Source: Neelides folsomi | Lineage: Eukaryota > Arthropoda > Collembola > Neelipleona > Neelidae | DNA: 64,000 nucleotides | Direction: 5' to 3' | NCBI GenBank assembly: GCA_034687125.1 | Contig: JAQGBZ010000288.1 | Span: forward strand, 1 to 64,000 | Shown here: piece by piece, positions 2,312 to 43,705 of the stretch | How the letters are laid out: the number at the start of each line of letters is the position of its first letter | Numbering within the stretch: the first letter of the stretch is position 1 | Position numbers and translations under genes: made by a program | The notes under the pieces: model-generated | Seen by the model: only the letters and a program-made list of their open reading frames with translations | What the model was told of the DNA's origin: nothing | Databases searched by the model: none

Positions 2312-3679
2312 TCATAAAATCCTACTTGTCTTCTCTATTGGAGAATTCTCCGTAACTTGGTCGTTTTCTTTGCCATCCGTTAACAATTTATCCTGGGGCT
2401 TGTAATTCATTTGTTTGAAGAATTGGAGAACATCGTGAATTGCATCCAATTTAGCTTTCTTCTCTGTTTGACCAATTCCAATGAGAGTGGCTGGCGGTTC
2501 CAGTGTCAATTGAATCAAGCATTGATGAAGTTTATTTGCATTCAATTCATCAATTGGAATAATAATTACGGTAAATTTCTGCTCCTTGGCTAAATCTTGA
2601 AGAAATTTTTCAGGGTCATCGAGAGTTGCTTCAAAGTTTTCTTCCTATAAAAATAAATTACATTTCTTGTCATTTCTTGATTCCTTAAGAGAATTTAAAT
2701 ATTACTTTTTGGTTGAATTCTTACATGAATTTTATCTAACAGTTCTCCTCTATATTCTCTCAGAAAATTAGGGAGTCCTTTTATGAGATCAATTGAATTT
2801 TTTGCAGATTTGGAATCTCGGAGTATTTCAATAATCCTATCATCATCGTCATCAAATGCATGGGAATTTGCTGTTTCGAGTGGCAGTGACCGCAAGCGCT
2901 CAGCCATCATTTGGGCCGCCATCCTCTTTGCTAGCTTTTTCGATTTTCCGCGACCTATTTCCGTAAAATGGTCACCAACTTTGCATGCAATGGCAAATTG
3001 CCGCTCATGTGGCAAACCTTCTTCAGAATGTACCTATGAAATTTTTATAAATAACATTTAAATAAAATTCTAAATATTTTAACAAATTAAGATTTTTACC
3101 TCGTATGAAGGAGGAGAATATTTAAGTTTCATGCAGAGTTCCTGAAGGACTCCAACCGGATTTGAGTCCATGTCAACTTCACTTCTTCTCAAATTTTCTC
3201 CGTTGACAAAAATAGGCCCGCTTGGACATTCTTTGGTAATTTCCCTGGGCATTAAATTCATCTCTTGAAGAATTGCCTGAGCAGCTCGATGCTTAGCATT
3301 TTTCTTCGACCTCCCACTTCCCATTTCTGTAAAAAATCGTTTTGATTAAGACTCAATCTCAATTACGTGAGTTAATTACCTTCATATTGAGACCCGTTAT
3401 ACTCCAAGGAAATTCTGTACTGGAAGGTCGGCTCATGAACTTGCCCTTCAACTTGGAGTAAATCGTATTTTGGAGAAATATTACGCCGTGTGCAGAATTC
3501 ATGAAGGAACGACACAGGGGTTTTATTGTTATTATTATAGTGATCCAAATCTATTAATTAAACAAATCAATAATTAAATAAAGCAGTAAATAAAATATGC
3601 AATTATTATTTCTTAAATATAAATAATAAAGTAATTAGTTAGTTTTGTAATGAATTCACTTACTGTCAATTCGTTCCAT
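2312..3679 (-). CDS. loqs: Three-dsRBD protein, Loquacious/TRBP/PACT family (Dicer partner)
   Basis: Cytoplasmic double-stranded-RNA-binding cofactor of Dicer in miRNA/siRNA processing (family knowledge). Five exons by splice phase: 3664-3679, 3380-3550, 3100-3326, 2725-3033 and 2312-2644, giving 351 aa. The first exon codes only MERID and ends at GTAAGT. dsRBD1 spans about residues 15-83, beginning KTPVSFLHEF and ending in the RNA-contacting KKNAKHRAAQAIL helix. dsRBD2 spans about 112-182 (NPVGVLQEL ... GRGKSKKLAKRMAAQMM). dsRBD3 spans about 255-320 (DPEKFLQDLAKEQKF ... TEKKAKLDAIHDVLQFF). The third domain lacks a basic KKxAK helix of RNA-binding type, as in TRBP and Loqs, where it binds Dicer. 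A DDDDD acidic run lies in the linker. Human TRBP shows the same NPVGxLQEL and SKKLAKRxAA motifs. The gene is head-to-head with the ropporin gene 943 bp away. Whether it is strictly loqs or R2D2-like is inferred from having three domains. Confidence 0.9.
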
Positions 3680-7834: not shown

Positions 7835-9093
7835 GTTAGTTGCTTCATTTCCTACCCACCTTACCAATTACCATTCAAGCTCCATTGACCCAGTAAATAA
7901 ATATCAATGGATTAATTAAGCAAAATTAGGAAAGTCTTTGATTAATTATTTTTAATTCGTCAGATGAAGCCCTTTCCCCAATAGATTGAAAATTTGTCGA
8001 ATAGTATTTTTGCAACTAAGGAAACAATGCCTGGATATAACAAATGCCACGCGGAGCCACCTCAGAACTTTTCCTTCACAAAGCCGACAAATTTCTCAAA
8101 ACTCAAAGATATTTTCTTTTCATTGAAAAAATAATTATTTTCTATCGATCTAATCACCTTTTGATTAAAATTATCTAATCAGAGCGGTAGCAATTGATAT
8201 TCGTCATGTCCCACAGAATGTTTGAATGGAAGGCGAGGGCTCATGAGTTCTTCTTAGGTAATATTTCAATCCCCCAAATTAATTGTAAGCAAAAATACAT
8301 TTCAACAACCCAAAATTTTATTTTTAACTAAAAAAACCGGAATTAACTAGTTAATTAATAGAATTAACTATTTAATTATACAATTTAAATTTTTTTTACT
8401 AGTTTAGCTAATTGGAAAATTAATATTCCCAAAGGCAAAAGTGAATTGGTGAAAATAAAAGTAAATTGAGTTCCATCGTATCTCATTAATTAAACAAGAG
8501 CTGAAATGATGGAAAAATCATTTAATCAACAACAAGCTTCATCCAATACACATCATAGTTACATAAGGTCTTGTTATTTGAAAACCGGTTTGTGGTAGCA
8601 GGACTCCTGCATTATGCATTTAACAATGTGTGCATTGGATGAAGGGAACTCGTCAAGTGAACAGTAAAGTTGTTTACAATCGAATACCTTCTTCACGTAT
8701 TTATAATAATGCATTTATGAGCGAAGGAGATTGGGAATTTCCATTCGGCACCTCAGACTCATAATTTGCCATGAGGCCGCCGTTGATCTGGCCACTCCCA
8801 ATTAACATCCATTATCACTTCATTAGGGACTGACAGGTGAAGGTAAATAGGGGAATGAGTGGGATTTGTAGGACGACAATTAGGACTGGGTTGAATGTGA
8901 GAAAGGGAGTTGAGCGGGTTTTATATGCCGGTGTTCCCTTTGCGATGTGGGGAGTGCCGGCGATTGAAACTGCGCGGCCGAATCCGAAAAGGAGAGTTTG
9001 GGATTTTCAGGAGGGGGCAGTCGTTGGGGCTTGGAGGAGGAAAATAATTTCCGCCACTGTTCCTCCCGAATTTCGGTTCCGCCGACGAGTCAA

Positions 9094-11289
9094 ATGGACC
9101 GGAACAACTCACACATCGCGGACTTCTATGCGGACCGGGCCGTGTTCATCACGGGGGCCACGGGGTTCCTGGGAAAGGCCACGGTTGAGAAGCTCCTCCG
9201 GTCGTGTTCGCGGATTAAGGCCATTTACGTCCTTATAAGGCCAAAGTCCGGCTCCGATGTCAAGGCCCGACTCAGCGAGCTCATCGACAACTCCGTAAGA
9301 CTCGCCGTTTATTATTTACAATCACCTTTATTTTACTCCTCAATGGGCCGTTTTTTACATTATTAATTCTTAATCGATTTCTCTGTATTTTATCAATTTG
9401 ATGATTTTTTTAATATTTGATCATTTATCGATTTTATTTTAACATTACCGTTTTTTTATTTCAAATTTAATTTTCTTTGTAGTTGTATGAGACCCTGAAG
9501 ACGGAAACGCCGGAGTTGTTGTCCAAGATCATTCCTGTAGCTGGTGATATCACACTGCCAGAGTTAGGCATCAGTGAAGAGGACCAGAAGCTCCTTGTGG
9601 AGGAGGTTTCTATCGTGATACATTCAGCGGCCACCGTCAAGTTCGACGAGAAGCTAAAATTGTCAATTAACGTCAATCTGACTGGGACGAAGAGGATGGT
9701 GGACTTGTGCAAGAGGATGAAGAACCTTGTGGTAAGTTCCTACATTACTTTGGGAAGGTAATTAAAAAGAGATCCAAAGAATCTAAACATGTTTGGTTCT
9801 CAAGGCCTTGGTCCATGTCTCGACGGCATATGCGAACTGTGAGAGGGCTGAGATCAACGAACAAATCTATCCACCTCCGGCCGACCCTCACAAGCTCATC
9901 CAATGTGTGGAATGGATGAATGACGATATCGTCAACACGATCACACCACAGTAAGCCCTCCTTCCACCAACCTATGAATCATTCCATGACTCGGACAATT
10001 TAATGCCAATTCCATTACTTTTAGACTCATTGGGACGAAACCCAACACGTACACTTTCACAAAGGCACTTGCGGAACATATTTTGAGTGAAGAAGCCGGC
10101 TCGCTTCCCATCACCATCGTTCGCCCCTCAATCGGTACTTTCTCACTTTAGCTTAAATCCTTTAGTTATTAATTACTTATCTGAAAGGATAAATAAAAAA
10201 CATATTTAATTTACAAATTTACTTCAATTATTTTCTTTAGTAACGGCGACATGGAAGGAGCCAGTGGCTGGATGGATCGACAACATCAATGGGCCCACGG
10301 GTCTCATCGCTGCTTGCGGCAAAGGGGTTTTGAGAACTCTTCTGTGCCATCGGAAGAAAGTGGCCGATTTGATCCCGCTTGACTTCCCTGTCAATCTCAT
10401 CATTGCTGCCGGTTGGCACACTGCCACTGCTAGGTTCTTTTTCAACTCTTAATGCATTATGCATTTAATTTGTAACACTAACAAGTGACTAATTCCAGGC
10501 CCAACGGCATCGCTGTGTACAATTGCTGTTCTGGTGCGGATAATCCACTTCTTTGGGGTGAACTCGAGCGCTGGGGCTTTGCCCACCTTTTAATAAATCC
10601 TCTCAATGACGTGGTCTGGTACCCGGGTGGGACTTTCACGACCAACCGCGTCTGGAACAACGTCAACGACTTCTTTATACATTACGTTCCAGCGTACTTG
10701 ATGGACACGGTGGCCAAGTTGACCGGGAAGAAACAAGTGTACGTATTTACTATTGCAGATGACCGAGCCAATGGACTCGTTGTAATCGGATATGTATTTT
10801 TGCAGGATGCTCAAGTTATATTACAAGCTGGCCAAGGCCGTGGCTTCGCTCCAGTTCTTCACGACTCATGAATGGGCGTTCAAGACGGACAACATGACGG
10901 ACCTCTACGACAAGCTGAGCCCTGAGGATCAGAAGCTCTTCAACTTCAACATCAAAGAAGTGAATTGGCCTAATTACATCGGGAAGTATTGTCTTGGGCT
11001 CCGGAAGTATGTTCTCAAGGAAGATCTCAGTTCTCTCCCTCGTGCCAGGAAGCACGTGAGAAAGTGAGTGTGTTTGGAATGCTATATGGATAATTGATTG
11101 GGGATCATTGTAATCATTTCCCAATTTTTCAGATTGTACTGGATTCATCGATGTACCCAATTCATGCTGATCCTTCTCTTCTGGCGTGCAATAATGTTCC
11201 GATCTGAGGCGGCGAGACATCTTTGGTCATTCATGTTCGGGATGGTTCTCCGTGTGTCCCGCATGCTCCCCATTGGGGAGTCCCTTTAA
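9094..11289 (+). CDS. Fatty acyl-CoA reductase (alcohol-forming)
   Basis: Reduces long-chain acyl-CoA to fatty alcohol with NADPH, supplying wax esters, ether lipids or cuticular lipids; usually on ER or peroxisome membranes (family knowledge). Eight exons: 9094-9294, 9483-9731, 9805-9950, 10025-10134, 10241-10433, 10499-10738, 10806-11063 and 11133-11289, giving 517 aa, the usual size. The Rossmann NADP-binding motif TGATGFLG is at residues 20-27. [10 protein letters not shown] and [10 protein letters not shown] are typical of the family. The catalytic YxxxK is Y208-K212 in [11 protein letters not shown], followed by IVRPSI. Residues after about 350 form the FAR C-terminal (sterile) domain (FFTTHEWAF, then [12 protein letters not shown]). 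The last exon holds a hydrophobic stretch ([13 protein letters not shown]), a likely membrane anchor. The start was taken at the ATG giving the normal short leader before [11 protein letters not shown]; an upstream exon at 7801 is possible. Confidence 0.93.
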
Positions 11290-19561: not shown

Positions 19562-21858
19562 TCAGTTTTGGTCGATGCGCGGGTCGTCTAAGCTCGGAGG
19601 GTCGAGAATCCAAGACTCGAAATCCTCGGCCCCAGGTGAGAACCGAAGAGACTTCTTCTTACGCCCACTGAAATTTTCACAAAATTTTCTTCACTTGTTC
19701 TCATCAAGGATTCATTTATTCGGGAATGTTCTCCGTAGCTCAACAAAGCTGTGGAGTCCCTCTGGGTTTAAATGGAGGCTTCTGCCTTCTCAAAACCCAA
19801 ATTAATCTCAAATAGGGAAAACTTGGGATTTCCATCCCTTTTTTAAAAACTTTCTTTCATTTCCCCCATCGTTCACCTTCAGCATGACGTAAATAGAGAG
19901 ATTGAGAACTTTTACTTTAAAAACTCATTTCTTCATTTTGTACTCCGACTAATAGAAAGTTGGGGGGGCTGACAGGAATTTGTTCGTGTTATGTATACAC
20001 GCGGATTTACAACAAATTAATAGATTCATAAAGCTATTAAAAAATTTTAAAATCCAAATTTCCAATTTAAACCATCAACTTCAAATACACGTAATCTCAT
20101 CTCAAAATAGAAAGTTTTCAGATTCGGAAAATACATTTAAATTGAGATTAACAAATATGAAATCTAATCTCATACTTTAAACTTATACTTATTTATAAAT
20201 AAACTAGTAAAACCATTTCAAACTTTTTAATCTCAAAAAAAACTTCAAAATTAAACTAATCCATAAGAATATATGAGGCATCAAATTGTAAATAGTGCAC
20301 TTGAAAATAAAATAGGCCATACATACATGTCTAACATAATAATAATATTTAGTATATTTATCCTATAAATTGGAATTTGGATTAGATGAATGAAATTTCA
20401 TGATAAAATAATCCTTATCCAAATTGTTCTTTGCATTCTAGCAGAAAGGAAAACAAAAATTTGATGCTCAAAATGAACGATGGAGGGTTTTTCCACTCGA
20501 GTTATTTAGGAAGGTTTTCCTATTTAAGTGGAAAGGCTTCGTATTCAAATTCGACTTGTGTGTTTAGTAAAAGTTTTGGTTAATGGAGGGGCCGAATTGA
20601 CAAAGAGCTCTTTTGAAATAAACATTGAATAGACAACTCACATTTTGTCGAAATCGATGAGTTTAAATCCGTGATGACGTGTCAAGTCATTGTGGCGGTT
20701 CCATTCCCGACGTGGGCCGTATTTCTGAAGGGCTAAAAGAGTCTCAAGTTCCGCCACTCGTTGATCCGACTGCCGCTTCTCCCTCATCCCTCTCCTGCAA
20801 AATTCAATAAGCATTTCCATGAATATTCCCACCCCTAATTTCCATCTCCAATGAGGAATTTTCAATTTTTCCTCAACTTTAACATTTTAAATGGTCCGGG
20901 GGTTATTTCCCTACCGACCCATTGCAAACGGAAGTTTTTCCTTATGATAATAAACATCTAATGTATTTTATCTACCGTTTGTATCTACTTTTATTACAAT
21001 TCCAAGCTGCTTGAAATACATGCAGTAACTATTATATAAACTCCTGGATGTTCAATGTTGTGGGATGTGGAATGTGGAAGAAAGAAGTTTGAAGGGATTT
21101 GGCCTACCGCAAATTAGAAAAGGATTAAAGTAATAGGAAGATGTTGGGGATTGAATGTTGGCCTTTTATTAATCCGCATAAGAAGAAAATGCTCGGATTT
21201 CTATTCTTCAACAACGCCCACACTGGAAAGAACGATGGTTCAAATCCAAAAATTGGGAAAAACCATTTGGCCCCCTATTTATTAGTACAACATTCAGAGT
21301 TATCTCAATACTTTCCAATTACTCGTCTTATCGCTCAAAGGTCTTTATGGCGGATGATAGGAAAAGTGTAACAAGTGGATTTTCCAATAAAGTACATAAA
21401 TTCATCAAGATTCGACCTTCATGGGCAGACACCAAAAACGTCCCTTTCATTTTAACATACAAAATCTCACATTCTCAGTTACATTAGCAAAAATATAATT
21501 ATAAAAAATTAATAAAAAATCTGTCATAGAGTAAAAAATGAAGAAGGGGAAAAAATAATTGCTTAAGATAATGAAGGCCTTACAGCCATGAAATTCGAGT
21601 TAAAGTGTATTTTAAACAAAGGGATATTGAATGTCCTCATTACTTCCTCAAAGGAATAATTGGATGTAAATTGTAATTTGGGCTGAAAAATGCTGATGAA
21701 ATTTTCTCAACGATGCAGTGACGCCTTTTTTCAATCATGACAAGACAAATCAAAGGTATCAAAAATATTTCTTACGGAATGGCTGGTCTTGCCGAAACAA
21801 ACAAACTTCCAATGAAGATGAAGAAAACAATGCAGATGAGTTTATTGAAAACTTCCAT
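19562..21858 (-). CDS. Secreted, amidated neuropeptide-like precursor
   Basis: Three exons by splice signals and phase: 21776-21858 (ends CC, GTAAGA donor), 20642-20794 (TTTTGCAG acceptor, GTGAGT donor) and 19562-19667 (TTTCAG acceptor), giving 113 aa. Residues 1-23 are a clear signal peptide (MEVFNKLICIVFFIFIGSLF then VSA). A KR cleavage site follows at 34-35. The predicted peptide is residues 36-79, 44 aa, starting QSDQRVAELETLLALQKYGP, with a Gln that could become pyroglutamate. It ends GFKLIDFDKI followed by GRKKK, where Gly donates the amide and the basic run is the cleavage site. An internal RR at 56-57 could split it in two. The GRKKK signal appears only when exons 2 and 3 are joined in the predicted phase, strong support for the model. 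Without splicing, exon 2 runs into TGA. The C-terminal 30 residues form an acidic tail ending DDPRIDQN. I do not recognise the family; it is not PDF, DH31 or a CRF-like hormone by sequence. A good TATA box lies 120 bases upstream. Confidence 0.75.
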
Positions 21859-21977
21859 TTTCCAAGTTGAGTTGATGTCAAAGAACCACTTTGGGATCAC
21901 CGGTGTGATTGAACGCGAAGAGACGTTCTTCGTTCCTTTGGTGGAGTGAGAGTGAAGTAGAGTGAGGTATGTGGAGC

Positions 21978-21987
21978 CTTTTATATA
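21978..21987 (-). promoter_or_regulatory. TATA box of the neuropeptide-like gene
   Basis: Read on the minus strand the sequence is TATATAAAAG, a near-perfect TATA box. It lies about 120 bases upstream of the ATG at 21858, leaving room for a transcription start near 21950 and a 5' UTR of about 90 bases. It supports the gene model independently of the coding sequence. Confidence 0.6.
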
Positions 21988-23360: not shown

Positions 23361-26300
23361 TTTTGGAGGTCTTTGATGGAGCGAGTTGGGAGATTATCTT
23401 AATAAATGGTTCATTCTTAATCGAACTCTTTTGGATTCATTTAGAGCAAGTACAATGGAAGTGGGTGATTTGTTTGAAGCGGAGGAAAAGATTAAAGATC
23501 CTTTTGTGAACAATGAATTGAGGACAAAGTTTTAAAAGTCTCCTCTTACCTCTAATTTAATGTTGAGACGGAGGCGGAGTGGAAGATTTAAATTCCAAAT
23601 TCCTTTGAACAAATTTCATATCACATGCCTCTAAACGGGAATTTGATCCATTGAAACAAAAGCCGTTTCTTTGCAAACTCTTCAAACCCTCGGTCTTAAA
23701 GTTGAATTGTACATAGGGACCAAGGCAGATGGAATATTTTTGGAATATATTAAGCATATAAGATACACATTTCACAATACTCATATACAAACTCCAGGTG
23801 TAATTCCCCGCAGTTTTCCTCCGCCTTCAAATGAAGTTCTTTGACCATATGAGCAGAAATAGGTAAATAGTTACAATGTAATTTAAACTCCAGCTCATAG
23901 CAGGAATAGTTTGGGAATTTGGAAATTATAATGTAGATTGTCATATAAATTTTATTATTTGTCGAATCGTTGGGTCGCATTTCCCTGGCCCATTCATTCA
24001 CTCCGATGGTTTTCATGACGGAAATTTCGCATATGGGGACGAGGAAGCAATCGAGGCCATCTCGAACATCTCGCCCCATATGGACACAATATTTTGACAA
24101 TTTGACTCATGGAAGATTATCCAATGCATTTACTATATTTCCTAAACCTTATTTTGTTGACTCCCGTCGCTTTGAGGAGAAAACGACCGGAGGATCCTTT
24201 TGCTCAATGACCAATTTTATCTCTCGATTAAATCCCCGTAAGAATTATCATCAGTCATTAAAGGAAGCAATAAAGGAGAAGATGACGTAATCGCTCCAAC
24301 GACCTCCTTTGGCTATTTTATGTCAAGAGAAATTAATTGGACAAATTCTTCAATCTTTATTAAATCTGATCTGGAATGTTTAATAACTACCCTCATTAAA
24401 ACTCATATACGTTGTTGTACTTAACTTTCCCCCTCACAAGGAAAGTGTATTTGGCTAGTTCATTTTTGCACAACTCCTACATATTTCGACGTGCGTTCCA
24501 TCACGTAAGCTCCATTTCAGCCATATCTGAATATTCATGTTCTCTGACAATGAAAGAGTTCTGAGAGATGTTTAAAAGACTTCGAAATCCTTCGACTCGC
24601 AAGGATTCCCCACTGTTGGGCCTCATTTATTCCGAGCTCAACAATTACAACTAACTCTTGAGCATATTTATGGTTTAGAAATTCCCAATGAACACTTGCC
24701 CCAATATCCGAGTTGAATCATACATGTGCATTTTGGGGAAACGTTCATACTAGTGGGATTTTTGAGTGCCGGTGACTCGCTCACATGTCCAATATAGGAA
24801 TATTTTAGTAGATAATGTTTAATCTTGTGGACTTTCCCCAAATTAACCTTTGTTATTTTTATTATTGGTATTTAAGTATATGGAAACAATGTCCATTGAT
24901 TGAGGTGAATCAGTATCCAGATGGTTTTATTAGTATATGGACACGAAACGTGGGAAAAGGACTCTGAACGAGGGATTTAATAATTTAAGATTATGATAAA
25001 TTGATAAAGAATGATTCATTCATTAGATTTGATTGTAAATTTGGAAAGCTTTCATTTATATTTATTTACACACCGCACATCTGCACGGGTTCAGATGTTC
25101 AGAGCTTCCAGCGCATATTAACACAACTCACAATCAATCAACCGGAGCCAAATCACCCAAATCTTCTCCGAGTCTCCAATTAGTCTTAAGGTCAATATGA
25201 GAAACTAATCAAACTCAATTAATTAATAAGGACGTTATAATAGATGGGTATATCGAATGGAGACTTGTAATGTTAATGATTTTAACATTAAAATTCACGT
25301 TTCTTTAATATAATTAAGGAACCAAATTCAATAAAGTCTTCTGTCTAGCTCTAATTTTTGGATTAAAGTCCTTTTTAGTGTTAAATATAATGGTTGATGC
25401 ATAAATGTTCTTCGGATGAATGGTTTGTTTGTGTAAAATCTTTGTATGTTGTGATCAATTGTTATCATGTATGAGTATTTGTGGTAATTATATAATTAAT
25501 GGAAAGGAGCAGAGAAAGGACTTTCAATGCAATCAGTCACATATATCAAAAAGATCAATACTTCAATCTTAACATATACATACTTACAATTAGTTAGCAT
25601 ATCAAAGCCAATACTGAAGTATAATAAACCATAAACATAAACTATTTAAAACTTAAATAATAATATGATAATAATTAAAGATACAATAAATATGTAAATG
25701 TACTTGTTAAGAGTTTAAATCTTCCCATCAATCGTATGGTTTTAATGAGGGTATGACCTGGACTGGACCCACTTGTCCTTCCTCTTCCCCTTGATGACGT
25801 AGAAAGGCAAGGAGACGTTACCGCCAATACAATCTTCAAATGTATATAAATGTAAGTTAGCGATTTTAAAAATGAGGCCTAATCTACATTCAATAATACT
25901 TCAATTATATTAAAGATTAAATATATTTATAATAGACCCAATGTAAATATTTCTACATGGTCTAATCTAAGCATATAATATATTTGAATAACTAAAACAA
26001 ATAAATAAATAATTTTTTATAAAATGATCTAAAATATCACCCAGCTAGCAGCTCAGTGATTGTAATTGTAAGCACAATTAAATTTATTTAATATCTAAAT
26101 CCACATTCGAATTCATTCAAAATTGTCTCAAACAACCCCGTTGAACTATACATGAACAATTTATTGAAATTCCTCACCGCGAGGATTGTAAATTTCTTTT
26201 CTAAACGTGAAAATGAAAAGTTAAAAAAAGTAAATTTAATCTTCAGAATTCTATTAAAATTGATATAAATTAGATAAATAATAAACCCAGATTCATACAC

Positions 26301-26361: not shown

Positions 26362-28460
26362 ATGCTTAGTAAGATTCAAATGTTGAATTCGTCCCTTCGT
26401 CCGCTTCTAATCGGTTAGAATTTCTTCTTCAATATAACGAATAACGATACAATTACATATTCATTTATTTACGATTTTATTATACCAGTATTATTTAGAC
26501 ATAGTTTTCTTATTTTTTCAAAATAGAAGCGACACGAGGACTAACAATTTCAGCACTTAAAATCGAAATGAAGATTCCCGGAAATCATAGTATTTTGTCG
26601 ATTGTATCACCTTTCCTTAATCAAACCAGAAATACGACCAGTTTCTTCTGTAGAAGTACGTCTGATAAATTTAACAATTTTAACATTTATAACTTGATTA
26701 CGTATTTATAATTGTGTTCAATTTAGACTCGGCTGAACAGCTCTGGAAAGGAGTAACGAGTGTAAGTAATGCTGGACGAAAGAGAGGTCGTGGGAAAGGA
26801 ACAGGGAGGAAAACGGCAAAGAATTTAAATAGGGGACAAATAATTGGAGTTGGTAAGGGATTTGAATACAATCCTGTATTGATGGATAAAGATTAATTTA
26901 TATACAATATATATATATATATATGCACCTATATGATTAATTCAAAGAATCTTGGTTTTTCATTTTATTCATATTTTCAGGGAAAGTGAATATTCGGTTT
27001 CCGGGACTCAACGCCCCGATTATTCAGGGAAAAGAACTTCTTCAGCAAGTTTCCCTTCCACCTGATGAAGAACGTGAAAAAAAGTTACTTCGCTTAAGAG
27101 ATTCAATGGCTACTTTCAAACCTCTCAAATTATCTCCTCTTGAGCGAGGATGGTCAGGTGCTAAAATGCACGGGAGAAGTATTGGACCTCCTGATCCAAT
27201 TGGAGATGGTAATTTTAGCTACACTATTTTTATGGAATTAAATATAAATGCTAATTTATTAAATATTAAAATATTAAATTAAATTTTCAGTTACATTTGA
27301 AGGCTTTGACACGAAGATCTTGGCAGTAAGTTAAATTATTAAAATGTCTAATACATACTAACTGGTTTATTAATCATTGCAATCATTTCATTTATTAGAT
27401 GAAAACAGTCGCACATATGAGTGCGAATTTTGGTAAAGTTCGCCAGTTTTCCGTCTTCTCCTTCACAGGGAATGGCAATGGACTTGGAGGATTTGCTGAA
27501 GCAAAGAGCGCCGAAGGTAAAGCGGCTTTGAGGAAATCCAAAAACCGAGCTGCCCAAAAGCTCTTGTATTTTGAGCGCTTCAATGATCATACAAGTAAGT
27601 TGTCAATTTTACAATAAAGAATTTTTTATATCTGTACGATTTGATTTAACAAACTTTCCATCAGTTCTGCACGACTTTCATTGCCGGTTTGGCCAAACTC
27701 AACTTTTCGTTTACAAGAAACCACCTGGCTATGGGCTCGTTTGCCACCGAGCTCTACGAGAAATTTGCAAACTGATTGGAATTAAAGACATCTATGCGAA
27801 AAGGGAAGGTGCTCGAAATTTGCAACACACTGTAAAGGCATTTATTCTTGGTCTTCTCAGACAAGTGAGTGTTTGGAATTTTTTAATTCAATATCGATAT
27901 AAATAATTGTATGATTGATAAATAATAATTTCTTTAATTTAGAAAAAATACAATGAAGTCGTAGCCGACAAAGGTCTCTTCCTAGTCGAACAGCGAAAAG
28001 AAGAATTTTTGTTCCCTCGGGTTATCGCTGCTCCACCGAAGCTTCGAACCGAAAATGAAATTCCTTCTGATGAAGTTCTTGACTTCACTCAGGCATGTTA
28101 ACTTTTTAAAAGTTCCTATTATCCGCTAATTAAATCCGAATATTATTTAATTGCTTAAAATGGTATTAATTCTTATTTAAATGAAAATTTCAAATGAAGG
28201 TGATGATGGATGGGAAAATTGCACTGAGGAGGAAAAAGAAGGAGATTTTCTACACACGACTCCCAAGTTGGACCAATCACTTATTGAAGACCGAATGGCG
28301 TCGCGGACACCAGGAAATCAACGTTCATATGGCGGCTGAATATGGGCATGGGAAGAGTCAACTTACTTCTATTTATCCAGAGAGCGATCGCCACTACGCC
28401 AAGCAGCTCATGAGGAAAAAGAAAGCTGAAGCTGCTGCTCAAGAAGAGGCCGAATCATAA
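26362..28460 (+). CDS. mRpS5: Mitochondrial small-subunit ribosomal protein uS5m
   Basis: Component of the mitochondrial ribosome small subunit near the mRNA entry and decoding region (family knowledge). Nine exons: 26362-26413, 26527-26655, 26727-26852, 26981-27208, 27291-27325, 27399-27594, 27665-27864, 27943-28092 and 28200-28460, giving 458 aa. Residues 1-17 (MLSKIQMLNSSLRPLLI) look like a mitochondrial targeting peptide. RGRGKGTGRKTAKNLNRGQI is the animal MRPS5 signature before the core. The S5 N-terminal domain starts near residue 191 (VRQFSVFSFTGNGNGLGGFA, then KSAEGKAALRKSKNRA). The S5 C-terminal domain follows (PPGYGLVCHRALREICKLIG and YAKREGARN). The last intron appears to use a GC donor (ACTCAG then GCATGT). 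That choice keeps the long basic tail in frame; a GT donor two bases on gives a different, shorter acidic tail. Confidence 0.92.
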
Positions 28461-28829: not shown

Positions 28830-31800
28830 TCATAGAATTGAGTATGAAAATGTTGAGGGCGATTTTCGACGGAGAAGGAAGTTGAGCGAGGCGGGGAGTT
28901 TGGACACTCTGAGGATGTTGGGAGGGCAAGGGGCGAGACAGGGGATGAAGCCAGAAATCCCCGGGCGACGATCCGAAGAGCAAAGAGATGCATCTACCGT
29001 TGTGGATCCACTCACGCACTCTACAACCACTTCCCGCATTCCTAAACAAACTCAAATAATTACATAACGACTTACACTTAAGATATAAGTAACAGGGAAA
29101 AGGGAAAAACAATAGAAACTTAAATATTTACATTAAAAATGGTATAGTATTAAAAAGTAGAAATTTAATAAAACTTAATACAATTTAACCGCTTTAATAA
29201 CCAAGAGTGGGAGGTACGAGAAAGAAACCGTATTTAATGAAATGAACGAACCAGATCCACAAGTAACGGAGCAGTCAGACACACTTTTCCGCCATTCGTA
29301 AAATGAGCCTTCAAGCGGAGAATTTTCTTCTTCCTCCCTCATGTACATTTTTGGCCTCGAGAAGTCGATGGGTATTGCTGACCAATTCCCAGGTATTTCT
29401 CTTTTCGTTCGGGAAAAAAGCCCGTCCAATGCCCCAACGTCGCGTTCTGACATCACTCCTTCTGGCGTATCATCCGCTCCAAATTCCTTTAATGTAATAA
29501 TAGTTCCTTTCATGTTAAGTATTTCATATGTAAAGATATTTTATTTCAAGTAGTTATTATTAAATTGAAAACAAAAGGCCTTTCAATTACGATGCATTTC
29601 CCTGCTAAGCAATAAGCCTTTCTAGATGAATCTCCACGCGAGCAATCTGTTCCTGGAGGGAATTGACCTTCTTCTCCATTGACCATGTAGAAACGGTAAG
29701 GGATATTTGAGTCCTGGCACCCGATCCGGCAAGGTCTGTCAACTTCTCCTAAACCAAAGTAAATTCGTTTGCAATAGTTACAACTTAATTAAAGACATTG
29801 TTGAGGAAACTGAATTTTGGAAATAAAACCTTTGGTGGCTGACAATTGCATTCCAATTCCAGAAAGTCCACGAACTTTCGCAGAATATTTACGACAAATT
29901 TTGCTCGCATGTTCAAAAGGAGTCTCAAGACGACGACAACCCAACTCCAAGATCTGAAATCATAATAGTTATCAACTTATCAAACATAAAAGAAAAATTC
30001 AACATTTCAATTACACTCTAAAATTCAATAAAATATAAGTATTCTACATAGAAAATACATATTACAAGTAACACAGGTAATAATATTACTAGTGTAATAA
30101 TTTAGTAAGGATATTAAATTGATTGGGATGATTTTAAAATGATTGTCTTACGGTCGCCTTTGAAGGTTTGCAGAGTCTCAAGGAAAGTCTTAGCCCTGGA
30201 CAATTGGATGTGGAGGTTGCTGTACAAGGTCGTTCAACGACTTCGAGTCCTTTAGCAAGGGCGAGACAAGAAGGGCGACATTGGCTTCGACTTTCCCAAT
30301 TCCCCCAACCACTCCGTCCCACGCGACTCTTCCCACATTCATCTTCAGAAAGGGAAAAGTGAGTTGACCCGTCGCAAGCGAACTCCTGGAAAAACCCCAG
30401 TTTAAAAAGGAATATGTGCTTAAATTAAGAAAGCAATTAAAATGGCACGAGAAAGTGACCTTTAGTGAGCAGATTGCAAGTTCCGATATGATGAGTTCAA
30501 AAATGAGGAGAAACTCAAGATGCTCAATTTGACAATTTCCTACAAACATCCCCTGGCATGACGGACATTGCCATGAGGTGACAAAAGACCAGAACGAACT
30601 CGCAATGGATTGCGTGTTGTTTAAAACCACCTTTGTTAATTAACTCTTTATTTGTAATCTCTTTGAGTCCACTGACACTGAAGGCCATCTTTTACTAAAA
30701 TAAGTACAATTAAACTTGCGTTGATTTGATGAATGAATTATAAAATAAAATGCATTGGATTATGCGGTGGAAATCCTTAAATGAGAATTGAATGAACCAA
30801 AGGAGTAAAAGGGTGAATAATAATAATTTGTTTTTATGAATGTCTTGTTGCATAAGCATCAAAGCCATCTCAATTGTCTCCATGTGAATCGAAGAGTGAC
30901 CAAAATTCGTCAACACCCTCAGACTCAAAGGGAGGATGAAAAGTGAATTTTTCAATGGTCCCACTTTCCTTTTATCTCCTTCACCTTCCTCTTTGGTGGC
31001 ACACTCGGAATGAACCAAATTTCTCAATGGGAAATCTCTCTTATCTCACTTTGCCCCATTGGGAAATACAAAAGGATGATTGGGAGATCAACATGGTGCA
31101 AGTTGGAGAGGGATTCAATTTGTTACAACATCTCTCCAACTCTTCCTCAGTTCCACTCTCTTTAATTCCTCCACTGACCAACTGCAAAGATTCAGAAACA
31201 CCAAAATCCCTCAGAATCAGAGACGGTGGAGTGGAAAGATGGGAATCACGGTTGTTCAAAAATGAAGGTTCAATTATTAAACGCTGATCATAATGGGAGA
31301 TGAAAAAACCTCATATCTATTATACCACATATGTACTTTGAAATGGATCTTATAGTAGACATAGCAAATTGAATGTAGTTCATAAATACGATTACAATGT
31401 GGAATAAAGCATAGGGTTAAAGCACTTGAACTAATTTGATTAATTCACGGAGTGTAAAAGGAAGGTCATTTCCATTTTTACATCAGTTGAATGAATAGAT
31501 AATACGTACCGTATGCGTGAGTATATGGTTCACTTATAAATATACATACACCATAGATTTATTAAATTTACTATGCACCATATACCAAATATCCATATAG
31601 TGGGTATAAATGCATAAAATCCTGTGAAAATATTTAAAAATGAAGATTTGGGCAAAAACAGTTTTTTACCTGACATTTCCCTGCGACGCAGAAGGTGGAG
31701 GATCCAGGACGAGAGAGAAGGCGACAAGCAGTTCCATCAGGGAAACTCCAACCTCGACTCCTTGAACCATCACGTCCAACACTCCCACACCACACAGAAC

Positions 31801-34800
31801 AAGCCCGTTCAGCTATAAATTAAGAAAAATGAACAACTCAACATGCAATTAAGCCTCACTTCCCACTCCAATTATTCTTTATATTTATATAAAATACAAA
31901 ATTCATTTTAAAGCTAATCGTCCAATGATTTGAATCCCTTACGATCGTTCGTGTTAGTCATGAAACCAAGTCCGGTGAGTTCGTTGTCAGCGAGGGCGGC
32001 TCTTGCACAAACTTCTTTTGCATATCCCTCCACCGTCCTATCACGTCCACCCGGTTCGCAGACCTTTAACCCCAAAATACAAATAAACATTTGGAACCAT
32101 TTTATAATAACAATTCGAAAGGGAAGGGATCGGTGGATCATTGTTTGTAATTAAAGTTTTATTTAATAATTAAGGATATTTTAATATAATTTTACTCCGT
32201 AATATTTGTATATGATTTTTAAATGACCTTTTGAGGGCGACAAGTCTTGTACTTTCTGTCAGGTCCGTAGCATTGCGCCCCGCCGTTTTGTGGCCGAGGA
32301 GAATCACATCTCCTCGCGGCGAGTCGAATCCCCGTTGAGTCATCAAGACACGAAGAAGAGCATTCAGTGAAGGGGGACCAACTCCCCCAACCGCCCTCGA
32401 CAGCATGGCCCGATGAAGAAGCCGCCGTTTCCGACCCGCGTCCCTCGTCCTCTCCAGCTACGCATTTCCCACCTCGACACCACTAGAAAAATGAAGAATG
32501 AGATTGAGATGACTTGACCTCACAACTCACCATTCCCTTTCCACAAAAAGTTCCTTCAAGGGCCGGATGAGAAGTCCAAGTATAGTGATCCCGACGGCAA
32601 TGGAGATCTCTGCAGACATCTTCAATGGGCTGCTGCCCAGCGTGGAAACTTCCTTTCCCATACTTCAATACGCCTTCATGGTGAATAAATGTATTAGAAC
32701 TTATTGTTAGGAAGATAAATATGTAGGTACTTAATAAACGTTGTATAGTAAATCCCCTATTGGCTTAATTAATAACATTGTTTATCTGCATCGAATCTCT
32801 GGCCCGGGAGTCTTCCATCTGCATCGTGAGCGAGTCGCGGATCGGCTTCCCCACTGTCGAAGAGACACTTGGCTTGGGGAGTTTCAAGAAAACTATCCAA
32901 GTACTTTTGACTACAAGGAGACCATGTGATTTTTCCTGATCCCAACGTCGGCGACATGATGTGACTTGTTGGGTCGCAGTCATTTCCCGCCCCTGGGCCA
33001 TCATGGCGCATTCCAAGACTTAAAACAAGTCATAATTTTTATATATGATTCCGTGAATGAGCAGGCCAAGTGAATGTTTAAATTGATGCGAAATGATGTT
33101 TAATTGTAAGTGAAAGGTGAAAATCATAAAATTAAGAATTTTTAAAATTCTTACTTGTGACCGATCTCATGAGCGACGACGTAAACGCTGAAAGAGAAAA
33201 GGAAATAAGGCAAGGGATTAAAAGCAATTTGGGAAACCTTTCAAAGTGTCGTCCTTCATTGACGGTGCAGGAAGAGGATCGGGTGCACATGCCGGCAACA
33301 GGGGCGAGTCCCACCACTTGATTGCTCACTTTCCCTGAGCCGTGAACAACGTAGAGGTCAAGTCCAGTGAGGATCAAAGCGTGGTCCCAAGTCCCGTCTT
33401 TGTTCTCCCCTCTTTGCCACTTGCAAAAGCTCGTGAGGAAACGGTCGATGTCGAAGGGGCGCAGAAGGCCGGGCGGATCCTCCCTCAACACTTCCAACCG
33501 CTTCAGCACGAATCTCACTTTTCGACCCAATGAAGGGTCACCGTAAAGAAGCTGCACAGCATTGACCATGGCTAAGACCACACGTGTCACTTCCGCTTCC
33601 GCCTCATCCCCAAAATTGGCCTCCATGTGGGCAAAAAGGTCTTTGTCCACGAACACGGCTGTCTCGACCGTCAAGTCCCGTCTCACCTTCTCCACCAAGT
33701 TTTCTCCTGAGTCTGGTGGGCGGCCGATGCGCTGACCAAATACAGAATTTCCTTCCTCCTCAGGCTCAGTGAACCGATGGAGACTTCTTTTCGGCGGCCG
33801 ACGAAGGTCTTCTTCTGTGCTCAGAGCGGCCAATTTGTCTTCGTAGTCTTCGTGAAATAGGAACCGGGGTCGGCCGGATCGGCGGAACGGCGGAGTGTCC
33901 GTCGACCGATATCGCAGCCAATAAGAGTCCGTTGGAGCTCCGAGGGGAGTATAAGACCGGGAAGAACGGCGGGTCCGGGTGGATTTCCTCGTTGGCCAGA
34001 CCAACACAGCAGACGAGTTGAAGCGAGCAGGGAGGGGATGGAGGGAAAAATCGTTTTCTCCATCCCCAGACAATATCACACCTTTCTGTTGAATTCATTA
34101 ATTTTGGTAAATTGATCATCAATCCAATCAATTCATCTCCTAATTAGAAGAAACTAAACTTTTGAATTTCTCACCAAACCGCCACAAAGATCCAAAGCTG
34201 CCGCTCCATGGGCCACTTCCTTTTCCTTCCCCAGTGGGTGGTGAGTGACGTGGGCATGGACGAAGCAAGAAGTGAGGGATTGGGCCATTCCACGACCGAC
34301 CTCCTCCACACCGCCCCCGCCGCGGACCACGTGGACAAACTGAGGATGGAGAAGATCCGGATTGTGTCGGAATTTGAGGTGGAAGGATCGGCCGAGTGCT
34401 TTGACTTCCATCCCATCTCCATCACCTATCCTCTCCGCCACCCCGACCTCCCTCACTAATAAAGAGGGAATTATGAATTAAATGGTTTGTAGACCGGAAG
34501 TGTTCCGCTCTCAAACCCACAGAGACACACACGCTCATTTTTCATTTTGGTTTTTCCTTTGGGGACTCTTCCCCATCCCTCATCGAAGAGACAGCAGAGA
34601 AAGGGAAGGTTCTTTGTTCTCCAAATTGGCCACGATCCACTTCCCCCTTCACTTTCCCGCTCAAGACAATCATGATTATTTTAACTGCAGGGACACGTGT
34701 GTAATTGCCTCCAGGGGTTCTGCTCCACATGTGGATGATTTGGCCCGTGAAGGGCCGGAAGTCTCACCTGAACCTTCGTGGTCCGGCCCAAGGATCCGCT

Positions 34801-36758: not shown

Positions 36759-38194
36759 TCCGACCTCTTGAGCGCCTTCCCCATGAGAGTCTGCCGACGG
36801 AGGGCGAGTGACGAAGGTTGGCTTCTCTCGTCGCCTCCCAATTTCCAAAACCTCCCGACCCCCCACTCATGTGGGAAGGTGAAGGTTGAAAGTCTTCGGT
36901 GGCAGGTGAGGGGGATCACGGGAGTGGTGAAACTCGACATCACATCAAACACCAAATCAAAATCATGCGAGATTGCCCAAATATAACTTTCAATTAAATC
37001 TCCATTCTCATGATATTTATATATTTATGATTTTATAAAAAGAATAAACGCTTGAGGAATTAATTTATCTAATTAAACACACTTTAACATTTTAAATAAG
37101 CTTAATAATACAATAATTAATATGCGCTATAAATTATAATAATATATATTAATATCCTTAGGCATAAGCATATTCAAAGATACAAAAATAATCAAGTATA
37201 TACGTGTTTGTAATTTGCATATTTACATTACTACATACCTTACATAGCAAATGCTTTGTCTTCATAAACTTATTATGTTTTACTTATTTATTTAGATATA
37301 AATTAAATCTAGCAATACATTATGTATGATACCTGTTTTTTTTAAATACGTATATATCTATAATTATATTAAAATTGTCGTTCAAGGTTTGATTAACAAT
37401 AAGTAAAAGCACCTTCTTAATATTTAGAAAATTGGACGTCGAGAAAGAAGGTGCAAAGTACAAAGTTCGAAATTTAAATTCTCCCTATTCCGATTAACAT
37501 TTAAATGGGCTAAAGTTAATGAAGAGACGTTTTCTTCCAACTGGGCTTCAACTTTCCCAAACTCCTTCCTCGTTGGTCAACCAGTCAAAATCGTGAACGT
37601 AGAAGTAAATGAAAGTAATACAATTAACAAACGATGGTTAAACTCCTCGCCCGCTTTTCCGTCCGCTCTCTCGGGTATAATAAAGGTCTCCTTCCCTTGT
37701 CATCAAACTCGCCCTCGTGCGCCCTCAAAAGAGAATAAAGAAGGCTGTTACGCTGCCCGACTGACCACTCAACTTTCTCCAAACAATCTCAACGTTTTTT
37801 CAAACCTACGCCGTTCTTCATCATTAAGGTAAATTCTTCAATTCTATCTGTATTGTATCTATGATTTAACAAAGCCAGTCAATTGTAGACTAGATGTGAG
37901 TAGATTATATATAATGAATGAATATATATATAATGAAGAGATGAATACATTTTAATGATAGATTAAAAATATGTAATTTAACAAAACCAATACATTGTAT
38001 ATGTATATAGATTTTAATGTTCAATATTTTGATTTTACAAAAATCTTATGTAGGGTGGGTAGATTTTATTAATATTTTTCATTTAAATTGTGTGATTTCG
38101 CCAAGTTAATATTTAGTAGAGGTGCGTAGATTTTAATTTTACTTGAATTATTAATTAATTTATTAATTTTTCTCTATTGGGTGTTGATTTCAGA
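36759..38194. other. Head-to-head region between ADAMTS and piwi
   Basis: The ADAMTS start codon (minus) and the piwi start codon (plus) face away from each other here. GC-richer sequence lies directly upstream of ADAMTS (36759-36960) and again at 37430-37830 before the piwi leader exon. The middle is AT-rich and holds nothing recognised. Confidence 0.4.
37676..37684 (+). promoter_or_regulatory. Possible TATA box and 5' UTR exon of the piwi gene
   Basis: TATAATAAA is followed by a pyrimidine-rich GC-richer leader that ends at 37828 with TTAAG then GTAAAT. That is a plausible donor for a non-coding first exon joined to the acceptor TTTCAG just before the start codon at 38195. The intron would be 365 bases. 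Confidence 0.4.
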
Positions 38195-41100
38195 ATGGAG
38201 CAAAGAAGGCCTTTTGGTAGGGGTCGCGGAATGGGACGTGGTGTGCAGAGAGAACCCGGCTACATCACTCCTGAATCTCAATCTGAAACGAACATTGCCT
38301 TGTCATCCCTCTCTGGAGAAATGTCGAGTCTTACAACTGAATCTGATGATGTATCGGGAGTTGGAGATGCTGGAAAGCCCAGCAACAGAGGAACTCCTTA
38401 TTGGGAGGCTGGGACGAGGATGAGACCTGTCGAAAGTCACCCACTTCCCGATACTGATGAAGACGGTGCGCCCCGGACCGCGGCTTCACGAGGAAGCTCC
38501 CTTGAAAGAAGAATTACATCCTACAAAGTCCCACCATTGCCAGAATCTCCCATGGATGAACGTTCTGCCGAATTGCTCAAAGTTGTCGGAGATGAGCAAG
38601 GACACATTCCGGGGGATATTCCTAAGCGTGGAGGCCATCGCGCAGTCGGGGTGGAACCTGGAAATTGGCGTAACACCATCCAAACCAGGAGCAAAACCCT
38701 GGAGAGCAAAGTGGGGAAGAATGGAAAGTCAGTGGAGTTGATGTCCAATTACTTCAAGCTGATCCAGTCCAAGGATTGGACTCTCTACAACATCCCTGTC
38801 AGATTCTCCCCACCAGTGGACGAAAAGAACTCACGACGTTGGCTGATCCGACAAATTTCCGAAGACATCGCTCCTTATGTCTGGGACGGGGCGAATCTCT
38901 TCACCGTCAATGCATTGTGCGAAAAGGGAAAACAGAGGACTTGGACTATTCCAGACCCCAAGACTGCCTCCAACGTGACCATCAGCATGGAAGATTCCTA
39001 CAAGATTCCGAGCGGGGACCCGCAATGCTTCCAGCTCTACAACCTCATCATTCGCAAATGCATGCTCGGGATGAAGTTGGAAGAACTCGGACGACACTTC
39101 TACGACCCGAATCAAGAAATATTTATTAAAGAAGCCCAGCTCCGTTTGTGGCCTGGATTCATCACGTCCATGAGACCTCACGAGCGGGACGTTCTTATGT
39201 GCGTCGAAATCACCCACAAGGTCCTGAGGGCTGAAACGGCCTACGACATCGTCCAGGAGCTTTTAAGGGAACATGGAAGAGACCCAAAGGGCCAACAGAG
39301 AATCTCGGACGAGTTGGTCGGCCAGGTTGTGCTGACAACATATGGGAACAAGACGGCTTCATATCGGATCGACGACGTCAAATGGTCCATGAATCCAATG
39401 GCCACCTTTGAGAAGCGGGTGAAAGGGGAGAAGGGCGCGGAGCCGAAGACGGCCCCAATCTCCTTCGCCCAATACATGCTCGAGAGATACAACATGAAAG
39501 TGAATGACACGAAGCAGCCGCTTCTCGTGTCCAAGCCGAAGAAGAAGACAATCCACAGTGGGGAAGTGCAGAATGTTTTGCTCATCCCGGAGTTCTGCCA
39601 AATGACTGGTCTCACTGATCGAATGAGGGCCAATTTCAACCTCATGAAGAGTTTGGCTACTCATCTCCATCAAGGACCGGGGACGAGGATTGGCTCAATC
39701 AAGAAATTCATTAACTCACTTCACTCAACGGATGAGGTAATTTTTTTACTTTGATATTATTACTAAAATTATTATCATTACTTTAAATAAAAATTAATTA
39801 GTTGATAATTTGTTAATGTGAAATTAAAATTTAACGTTATATTTTCGTTTCAGTTGGTGAAGGAGCTTAAGAGCTGGGACATGAGATTCGACAAAGAACT
39901 CATCACCTTCCCGGGAAGAATCCTCAACCGAGAAACGATCCTATTTGGAAATGGAGGAACTGAGGCCCCAAACCAAGAGGCTGATTGGACCATGGGATTT
40001 AGAAGTAATTTTTTTATTCTTCAATTAAATATTTATAAATAGATATTTTATTTGAATATATAATATAGGTTCCAGAAGTTCTTTAATTTTACTTATTCTA
40101 ATTTGCTTATATTTATTTTTTAGAACAAAAACTCTTTTCTGTGGTCAACATGAACAAATGGGTGTTGGTGTCTCCTTTTCGAGAAAGGCAAGCAGCGGAC
40201 ACTTTCGTCATGACCATGCAAAAAGTCGGGAAACCAATTGACATGCAAATTGTCAGGCCACTCGAAGTCGTTACCGTTGGGGATGTGAAGCCGGTGACGT
40301 ACATCAAGGAAATCAAGAATGTCATCGCGAAACATAAGAATGATCTTCAAATGGTTTTCGTCGTTCTTCCCAACAATAAAACTGAATTGTACAACGCGGT
40401 CAAGAAATGTCTTGGAGTTGATTATGGAAGTAAGTTTTTATTATTTTTACATATTACATTAAAATTGTTATTTATTCATCAATAATTATTTTATCACTTT
40501 TACACTTTCTCATGCAATTTCTACTTTAATCATTGCTTATTTAATTTCCAGTTCCATCTCAATGTTTCTTGTCCAAGAACGTCCAGAAGAATAACATGTC
40601 AGTGGCGACGAAGGGAGTAATTCAAATGAGTGCAAAAATCGGCGGAGAACCTTGGAGCGTCAAACTTCCCCTTAAGGACTTGATGGTCGTTGGATTTGAC
40701 GTCTACCATGACAAAAGCTCGAGAGGCAAAACAGTTGGTGCAATGGTTGCTTCCATGTCCCCCACTTTGGCCAAATATTATTCATTGACTTCGTATCATT
40801 CAACGGATACAGAACTGAGCAACAACATGGCTGACATGATTATTGGTAAGTTCCCTTTTCGAATCTCTTTATTTGGTTCAATGGCCAAAATATTGATATT
40901 TATTTTCAAATTCCAGAATGCTGCCAAGAATACAAAAAGGTGAACGGGAGCCTCCCCAAACGGATCATCCTTTATCGTGATGGAGTCTCAGACGGACAAG
41001 TGGACTTTGTTGTAAGGAGCGAACTCCAAACGATCATTTCTTCTCTTGAGAGTCACTGCAAGGCTGCAGAAGCGGACGAGGTCAAGTTGACATTCATCAT

Positions 41101-41570
41101 CTGCACCAAGAGGATCAACACGAGGCTTTTCATTAAACAGGAAAATCCTCCTCCGGGAACTGTCTGCGACGACGTGGTGACTCTTCCAGAAAGGTAAAAA
41201 TTGATTTTTAACGAATTGATATTTAATTTATACTAATTGATATTAACCTCTTTCTAATTCACTAAATAGTAAATTGAATAAACTAAATTTTGTTATTAAT
41301 TTCAGATACGACTTCTTCCTCATTGCTCAATTCTCCAAGCAGGGAACGGTGAGCCCTGTGAACTTCAATGTCATCCACGATACCAACATGCTGGATCCCG
41401 ACAAGGTTCAAATCCTCACGTTCAAGATGTGTCACATGTATTTCAACTGGTCTGGAACTGTCCCTGTTCCTGCTCAATGTCAATACGCACACAAACTGGC
41501 CTACCTTACTGGAACGGCTTTTGGAAATCAAGCCAATTTGAAACTCAGCAATCTTCTTCATTTCCTTTAA
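38195..41570 (+). CDS. piwi: Piwi-clade Argonaute (piRNA-guided slicer)
   Basis: Binds piRNAs and silences transposons in the germ line and sometimes soma (family knowledge). Six coding exons: 38195-39736, 39854-40004, 40124-40429, 40552-40845, 40917-41193 and 41306-41570, giving 944 aa. The N terminus carries Arg-Gly motifs (RRPFGRGRGMGRGVQREPG), likely methylated for Tudor-protein binding. The Piwi-type N/L1 region follows (VELMSNYFKLIQSKDWTLYN). PAZ is roughly 290-400. The MID guide-5' phosphate region has YNAVKKCLG then PSQCF. The PIWI catalytic tetrad is complete: D716 (GFDVYHD), E754 (STDTELS), D786 (LYRDGVSDGQ) and H919 (YAHKLAYLTG). Slicer activity is therefore expected. YKKVNGSLPKRIILYRDGVS is typical of Piwi rather than Ago. 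The large first exon (514 codons) with small 3' exons suggests partial intron loss. I cannot say whether it is the Aub-, Piwi- or Ago3-type member; the RG-rich tail and DEDH fit Aub/Piwi. Confidence 0.95.
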
Positions 41571-42477: not shown

Positions 42478-43705
42478 TTAGCAGCAGCCCTTTTTCGGCT
42501 TTTCTTTTGATTTCTTGTCCAAATTGATGGTGTCATGTGGATTATCCTTTGTCAATTGTGACCGCTTCGTGATGAGTACTTGCTTAGTAATGGCCATAAA
42601 CATCTAAAACAAACACACCAATTAATACCAACAACCTTCCCACCATCATAAGTAATGCAATCTAATAGTTTTTGTAATTACTTCTTCAACGTTAATATTG
42701 TCTTTAGCACTGGTTTCGTAGAGTTGAATCCCCATTTGATCAGAGAATCGCTGAGCGTCGGTGGTGAGGACGACTTTCTTCGAAGGGTCATCGTTTTTAT
42801 TCCCAACAAGAACTTTATTGACAAGATCGCAATTCTGCTCAATTTCGTGAAGCCAGCGTTTGACGTTGGCAAAGGAATCTCCATTCGTCACGTCATATAC
42901 AATTATCACACCATGAGTCCCCCGGTAATACCTGAGAAAATTAAACAATAGTGATTAAATTCATCCATCAATTCGATACTTTAATAAAACTATTACTGTA
43001 TTTTTTTTATCAAGGTTCAACGCAATGGAATTATGCTCAATGCGTGAGTTATACTAATAGATGCAATCTATTATGTATTCTCTAATTATTAGGTAAATGA
43101 AACTTTCTCACGATGTGAAGGAAAATAAAGACTACATCTAAAAAAATTAAACTCGCTTGATTTTAGTCAAAATTTTAGTTCATTAAAAATATATTGGGAG
43201 AATAAAATAAAAGATTACTAGTTCTGGCCAATATTTATTTTATTGATAAAATTTGAGCATAACTGGGGCGAGAAACGAATTGATGAAAAATCAATATTCA
43301 GTTTCCGTGGGTATATTTTATGATTCAAAAATAAATTAGGAAATTTGGTAATTAAAAAATATTTAGTTGAATTGCTTACGTTGAAGTGATTGTCCTGAAC
43401 CTTTCCTGGCCGGCGGTGTCCCATATTTGCAATTTGACCCGTTCCTGATTGACGACCAGCGTCCGAATCTTGAAGTCGACTCCAATGGTTGTAATGTAAT
43501 TTGTGGAGAACACATTGTCCGCAAACCTGACGAGAAGGGCGCTTTTGCCAACCCCTTTACATCCAATGGTCAGTTAAAGTGTTTGGTTAGTTAATTAATT
43601 GTTGGAAAGAGGGTTTCAAGGGCGCGGCTCACCCGAATCTCCAATGATGAGGAGTTTGAAGAGATGGTCGTACTCTTTCGAATGCCCGGCCCCCCGACTC
43701 GCCAT
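42478..43705 (-). CDS. Rab35: Rab35-like small GTPase
   Basis: Membrane-trafficking switch on the plasma membrane and recycling endosomes (family knowledge). Four exons: 43633-43705, 43380-43554, 42682-42931 and 42478-42603, giving 207 aa. All guanine-binding motifs are present: P-loop GDSGVGKS (22-29), switch-I Thr in [18 protein letters not shown] (70-74), NKND (127-130) and ETSAKDN near 157. The switch region and [25 protein letters not shown] and [14 protein letters not shown] are the Rab1/35 pattern and closest to Rab35. The C terminus is basic and ends KKGCC, a double-cysteine geranylgeranylation site. Compared with vertebrate Rab35 it has an extra short leader ([17 protein letters not shown]). 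Confidence 0.95.

Follow-up and report, generated by a model that had tools for sequence, protein, structure and literature searches.

A three-exon gene on the minus strand of a 64,000-nucleotide stretch of Neelides folsomi DNA (contig JAQGBZ010000288.1, positions 1 to 64,000; the window) most likely encodes a peptide hormone of the iPTH/PXXXamide family, as judged from its sequence. The gene looks real, and it is probably a new iPTH-type member that carries Phe in place of the name-giving Pro. An earlier note on this DNA had read the locus as an amidated peptide-hormone precursor of unrecognised family. Gene anatomy and chance estimates support the first part of that interpretation, whereas the second part is probably wrong, as features published for iPTH/PXXXamide are present.

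Gene structure

The three exons join in frame through GT..AG introns and encode 113 residues and a stop codon. The resulting precursor, MEVFNKLICIVFFIFIGSLFVSARPAIPRGMREKRQSDQRVAELETLLALQKYGPRREWNRHNDLTRHHGFKLIDFDKIGRKKKSLRFSPGAEDFESWILDPPSLDDPRIDQN, opens with a signal peptide; a KR site precedes the 44-residue peptide (QSDQ...FDKI), which GRKKK separates from a C-terminal extension. Exon 1 (21858-21776, minus strand, as are all features of the gene) contains the start codon and the predicted signal peptide MEVFNKLICIVFFIFIGSLFVSA, ends in phase 2, and is followed by the donor GTAAGA. Intron 1 (20795..21775, 981 nt) runs from this donor to TTTTGCAG, the acceptor of exon 2. Exon 2 (20794-20642) encodes the propeptide RGMREKR and 43 of the 44 mature residues (QSDQ...DFDK; residues 1-43 at 20644..20772), and the codon for Ile-44 is split by the splice junction. 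Intron 2 (19668..20641, 974 nt), in phase 2 like intron 1, opens with the donor GTGAGT and closes with ATTTCAG, and exon 3 (19667-19562) carries the GRKKK signal, an acidic C-terminal extension of 29 residues past it (SLRFSPGAEDFESWILDPPSLDDPRIDQN), and the stop codon TGA. Base-by-base comparison confirmed the exons, coordinates, and splice sites of the earlier note, and the signal peptide, KR, and Gln-started 44-mer lie where it had placed them. Its central observation, that FDKI-GRKKK is made by the in-phase joining of exons 2 and 3, also holds, as the junction assembles an Ile codon from AT and T and continues with GGG CGT AAG AAG AAG.

Within the 44-mer, Gln is N-terminal, SD occupies positions 2-3, an internal RR lies at positions 21-22, and the end reads I-D-x-x-K-I. 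As a free acid it has an average mass of 5345.9; the amide would weigh about 0.98 less, and the pyroglutamate form another 17.03 less. The core of the signal peptide reaches a mean Kyte-Doolittle value of 3.69 over its top hydrophobic 10-mer by a simple rule. The -3/-1 rule is a guide to signal-peptide cleavage sites, and by this rule the signal peptide is likely to be cut between VSA and RPAIP.

Upstream on the same strand, the TATA box of the earlier note was found at 21987-21978 (TATATAAAAG), where two overlapping TATAWAAR matches start at 21987 and 21985. The two strands of the window hold 47 such matches in total, which makes the argument from the TATA box one of position and not of presence. 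Sequence matches to initiator-like TCACTC sites occur at 21965, 21955, and 21949 (21944..21965, minus strand), and the predicted transcription start is probably near 21953, 32 nt past the first base of TATAAAAG. No ATG occurs in 21964-21859, so that the start codon of exon 1 is the first ATG downstream of the probable transcription start. On the downstream side, the nearest minus-strand AATAAA is at 17590, nearly 2 kb away, and an ATTAAA is found at 18915.

Relationship to the iPTH/PXXXamide family

Xie et al. 2020 (PMC7224569) describe the precursor of insect parathyroid hormone (iPTH), formerly PXXXamide, as a signal peptide and a KR site followed by a mature peptide with a highly conserved SD close to its N-terminus. 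A strictly conserved G with two basic residues after it and a C-terminal extension complete the precursor. All five of these features were found in the candidate precursor. A signal peptide and then KR precede the mature peptide, KR is followed directly by QSDQ, I-GRKKK is spliced together at the exon 2/3 junction, and an extension continues past the amidation signal. Pro at position -4 is absent and is replaced by Phe (F-D-K-I); in iPTH this Pro is only mildly conserved and is not defining in the wider survey (PMC7224569).

The C-terminus of Tribolium castaneum iPTH, known from the peptide used for an antibody, is TMPVGGGRIDPGRI-amide (PMC7224569). When its ...GGGRIDPGRI-amide is set against ...GFKLIDFDKI-amide of the candidate, the two have I-D-x-x-basic-I in common. 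End-anchored BLOSUM62 comparison of the Tribolium end with TRHHGFKLIDFDKI gave scores of 11 (last 6 residues), 7 (last 8), 10 (last 10), and 9 (last 14), a comparison that covers one member's printed 14-residue end, so homology rests on motifs. When the 44-mer was shuffled 100000 times, 294, 1275, 248, and 178 shuffles, respectively, scored as high. The window also has 45 open G[KR][KR] sites that involve no splicing, and none of them reached these scores over 6, 8, or 10 residues. Of 1055 KR or RR sites in six frames, 9 are followed by SD within 0-2 residues, the candidate's site among them. The family was picked after looking, among many peptide families, and all of these motif chances are therefore optimistic.

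Overall, the candidate resembles Tribolium iPTH in its signal peptide, KR, SD, G-basic-basic end, C-terminal extension, and I-D-x-x-[RK]-I-amide, but differs in having GRKKK instead of GRR and Phe instead of Pro at -4 (PMC7224569). It also carries an internal RR, although the Tribolium peptide was compared at its C-terminal end alone. The length of the precursor, 113 residues, is close to the 110 residues of each of the iPTH precursors of Tenebrio and Zophobas, one of which has been confirmed by mass spectrometry (PMC9552230). In the oyster Crassostrea gigas, members of the family (PXXXamide/QSamide) are called PYKI-, PIKI-, and PALI-amide, and the first two names indicate that a K-I end recurs in the family (PMC8398477). 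The candidate is like PYKIamide and PIKIamide in its K-I-amide end, and the same receptor type is proposed for it. It is unlike the oyster system in that a single oyster gene is alternatively spliced to yield several such peptides, and the named ones retain Pro at -4 (PMC8398477). The likeness to vertebrate PTH, PTHrP, and TIP39 is limited to the proposed orthologous receptor branch; iPTH is less than 12% identical to these hormones (PMC7224569), and the candidate has no Pfam match.

In the passages of the literature searched, we found no printed crustacean or copepod iPTH precursor. Xie et al. (PMC7224569) state that iPTH is also present in other arthropods, and a Daphnia sequence is listed in a figure legend of the oyster paper (PMC8398477); hence, we make no claim of first discovery.

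It is possible, though unlikely, that the gene encodes a real amidated peptide precursor of another or new family and that its likeness to iPTH is convergent. Besides the processing signals, the matches are limited to SD and the I-D-x-x-basic-I end, the comparison is limited to the ends of the mature peptide, and Pro at -4 is missing. The lack of any Pfam or NCBIfam match would also be compatible with convergence, but Pfam possibly has no iPTH model. Against convergence, the placement of SD, the KR, the G-basic-basic signal, the C-terminal extension, and the C-terminal residues jointly fit a single published description, which favors membership in the iPTH/PXXXamide family.

Profile and relative searches

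A Pfam profile search of the 113-residue precursor up to E = 10 returned no family, and no NCBIfam family matched it. The 44-mer matched only DUF4327 in Pfam up to E = 10 (E = 0.16); HMMER filters lose most matches above about 0.1, and very weak Pfam matches could thus be missed. Searches of solved structures with these two sequences returned no match above chance level. Relatives were sought in viral contigs, where none of 25 pattern matches was confirmed, and in bacterial and archaeal genomes, where none of 217 was confirmed, as is expected of an animal gene. Scans of the window for tRNA genes and Rfam families gave no match in either case.

Predicted processing and proposed action

The precursor would enter the secretory route by means of its signal peptide, and prohormone convertase would cleave after KR and at RKKK. 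A carboxypeptidase would then remove the basic residues, and the glycine would be converted to a C-terminal amide on Ile-44, while Gln-1 might become pyroglutamate. The released peptide, pQSDQ...FDKI-amide, is probably helical across its first three quarters and, like Tribolium iPTH, would be a ligand for a receptor of the parathyroid hormone branch of class B1 GPCRs. These steps go beyond the sequence itself, and the receptor action is proposed by analogy with Tribolium. An AlphaFold2 model of the 43 residues encoded by exon 2, built from the single sequence, has helices at 2-18 and 20-33 and a loose end (mean pLDDT 76.7, pTM 0.39). Ligands of class B1 GPCRs are expected to be helical. The hydrophobic moment of the first helix, SDQRVAELETLLAL, does not stand above that of shuffled sequences, 4233 of 5000 of which reach the observed value.

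In Tribolium, two PTH-type receptors are activated by synthetic iPTH, with EC50 values of 63 and 413 nM; when the receptors are knocked down, cuticle formation is disturbed, as is fecundity, measured as egg number (PMC7224569). RNAi of iPTH itself gave no phenotype there, the phenotype arising from receptor RNAi only, and the authors offered incomplete knock-down or a further ligand as reasons (PMC7224569).

The internal RR raises the possibility that this is a divergent iPTH-type hormone without the PXXX signature whose precursor is split into an SD-bearing N-terminal helix (QSDQRVAELETLLALQKYGP) and a second, amidated peptide, EWNRHNDLTRHHGFKLIDFDKI-amide. We think this reading improbable. 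A survey of stink bug peptides enters the PTH precursor as 'L1' (PMC10570428), which we read as a single long peptide and which favors an uncut 44-mer.

Chance expectation and coding signal

The exons could also be no gene at all but open frames and splice-like motifs that happen to line up, and we judge this very improbable. We defined a chain as a signal peptide, a GTRAG donor, an acceptor, [KR]R, a second donor, a second acceptor, and G[KR][KR] near the second junction. Applied to both strands of the window, this rule returned a single chain, the candidate gene. Among 800 simulated 64-kb windows, generated as order-3 Markov sequences by 8-kb block, at least one chain arose in 6 under the tight rule and in 13 under a looser one, and these figures are optimistic since the rule was relaxed once to admit the candidate. 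The initial rule was stricter, asking for 6 pyrimidines among the 11 bases before AG. It returned no chain in the real window and missed the candidate as well, which we attribute to the candidate's pyrimidine-poor intron-2 acceptor. After looking, we accepted 5 pyrimidines where 6 had been required and widened the signal-peptide window from 18 to 20 residues. An earlier order-2 simulation had given a chain in 1 of 120 windows. The earlier note had called such a coincidence unlikely by chance.

The training set for codon usage consisted of 13 Pfam-anchored stretches, extended somewhat past the matches (1461 codons in all, not leave-one-out). Of the six frames, the proposed one scores best in exon 2 (8.7 bits) and in exon 3 (9.2 bits with the stop codon, 13.2 without it). 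In exon 1, it falls below zero (-2.9 bits), and a frame on the opposite strand does better (1.6). Exon 2 was equalled or exceeded by 1101 of the 7647 other open stretches of 150 nt, and exon 3 by 296 of the 16240 open stretches of 102 nt, although both sets may include other real exons. With so many other open stretches scoring as high, codon usage by itself supports the gene weakly.

The simulated chains, the intron-2 acceptor poor in pyrimidines, and the weak coding signal, below zero in exon 1, all leave some room for a chance origin. However, a chance chain would additionally need to resemble an independently published peptide family at the N-terminal as well as the C-terminal end of the 44-mer, to have a TATA box at a fitting distance, and to have no upstream ATG.

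Peptides of the CRF-type diuretic hormone (DH44) resemble the candidate in length, helix, and Ile-amide end. Nevertheless, a DH44 or another class B1 ligand of similar length and Ile-amide end (PDF or calcitonin-type DH31) is a scarcely credible reading, as 44 residues, a predicted helix, and an Ile-amide end stand against the failure of the precursor to match the Pfam profiles of CRF-type DH44, vertebrate PTH, PDF, and calcitonin/DH31, a 44-mer matching DUF4327 only (at the E-value above), and a handful of solved chains, matched at chance level, none of which is a hormone.

Genomic context

Pfam matches set the candidate among animal genes. A fatty acyl-CoA reductase lies on the plus strand at 8968-11067 (NAD_binding_4 in two open frames, Sterile in a third), and the mitochondrial ribosomal protein uS5m lies on the same strand at 26941-27906 (N-terminal and C-terminal domains, two open frames). 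Between the two, at about 11.1-26.9 kb, no Pfam match was found; besides the candidate, one open frame was scanned there (23750-24106), and further genes in this interval are therefore possible. An ADAMTS-like secreted metalloprotease is encoded on the minus strand at 29546-34094 by reprolysin, TSP1, and Adt-1-like pieces, the last below the Pfam cut-off. It was considered whether the exons belong to this same-strand gene, which we think unlikely, since the plus-strand uS5m gene intervenes between them.

Farther along, a Piwi-clade Argonaute occupies 38159-41570 on the plus strand (PAZ, E 7e-28, and two Piwi-domain pieces), and the best-scoring solved relatives of its first Piwi piece are Piwi-like protein 1 and Siwi. 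A diacylglycerol kinase lies on the minus strand at 60339-62409 and is represented by catalytic and C1 pieces; its EF-hand piece falls below the Pfam cut-off. Pieces of a double-stranded-RNA-binding protein (2695-3033, minus strand), a Ras-family GTPase (42646-42954, minus strand), and an NAD kinase (48572-49126, plus strand) were also observed.

Significance

Genes of this kind are easily missed, being made of three short exons and having no Pfam or NCBIfam match. The candidate is not a new kind of system. In a shrimp, a PTH-type receptor has been reported, and in the passages covered no such ligand is named among the ligand-receptor pairs. Members of the iPTH family from outside the insects would therefore be useful, and with this assignment the N. 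folsomi gene would gain a family name and a testable candidate receptor partner.
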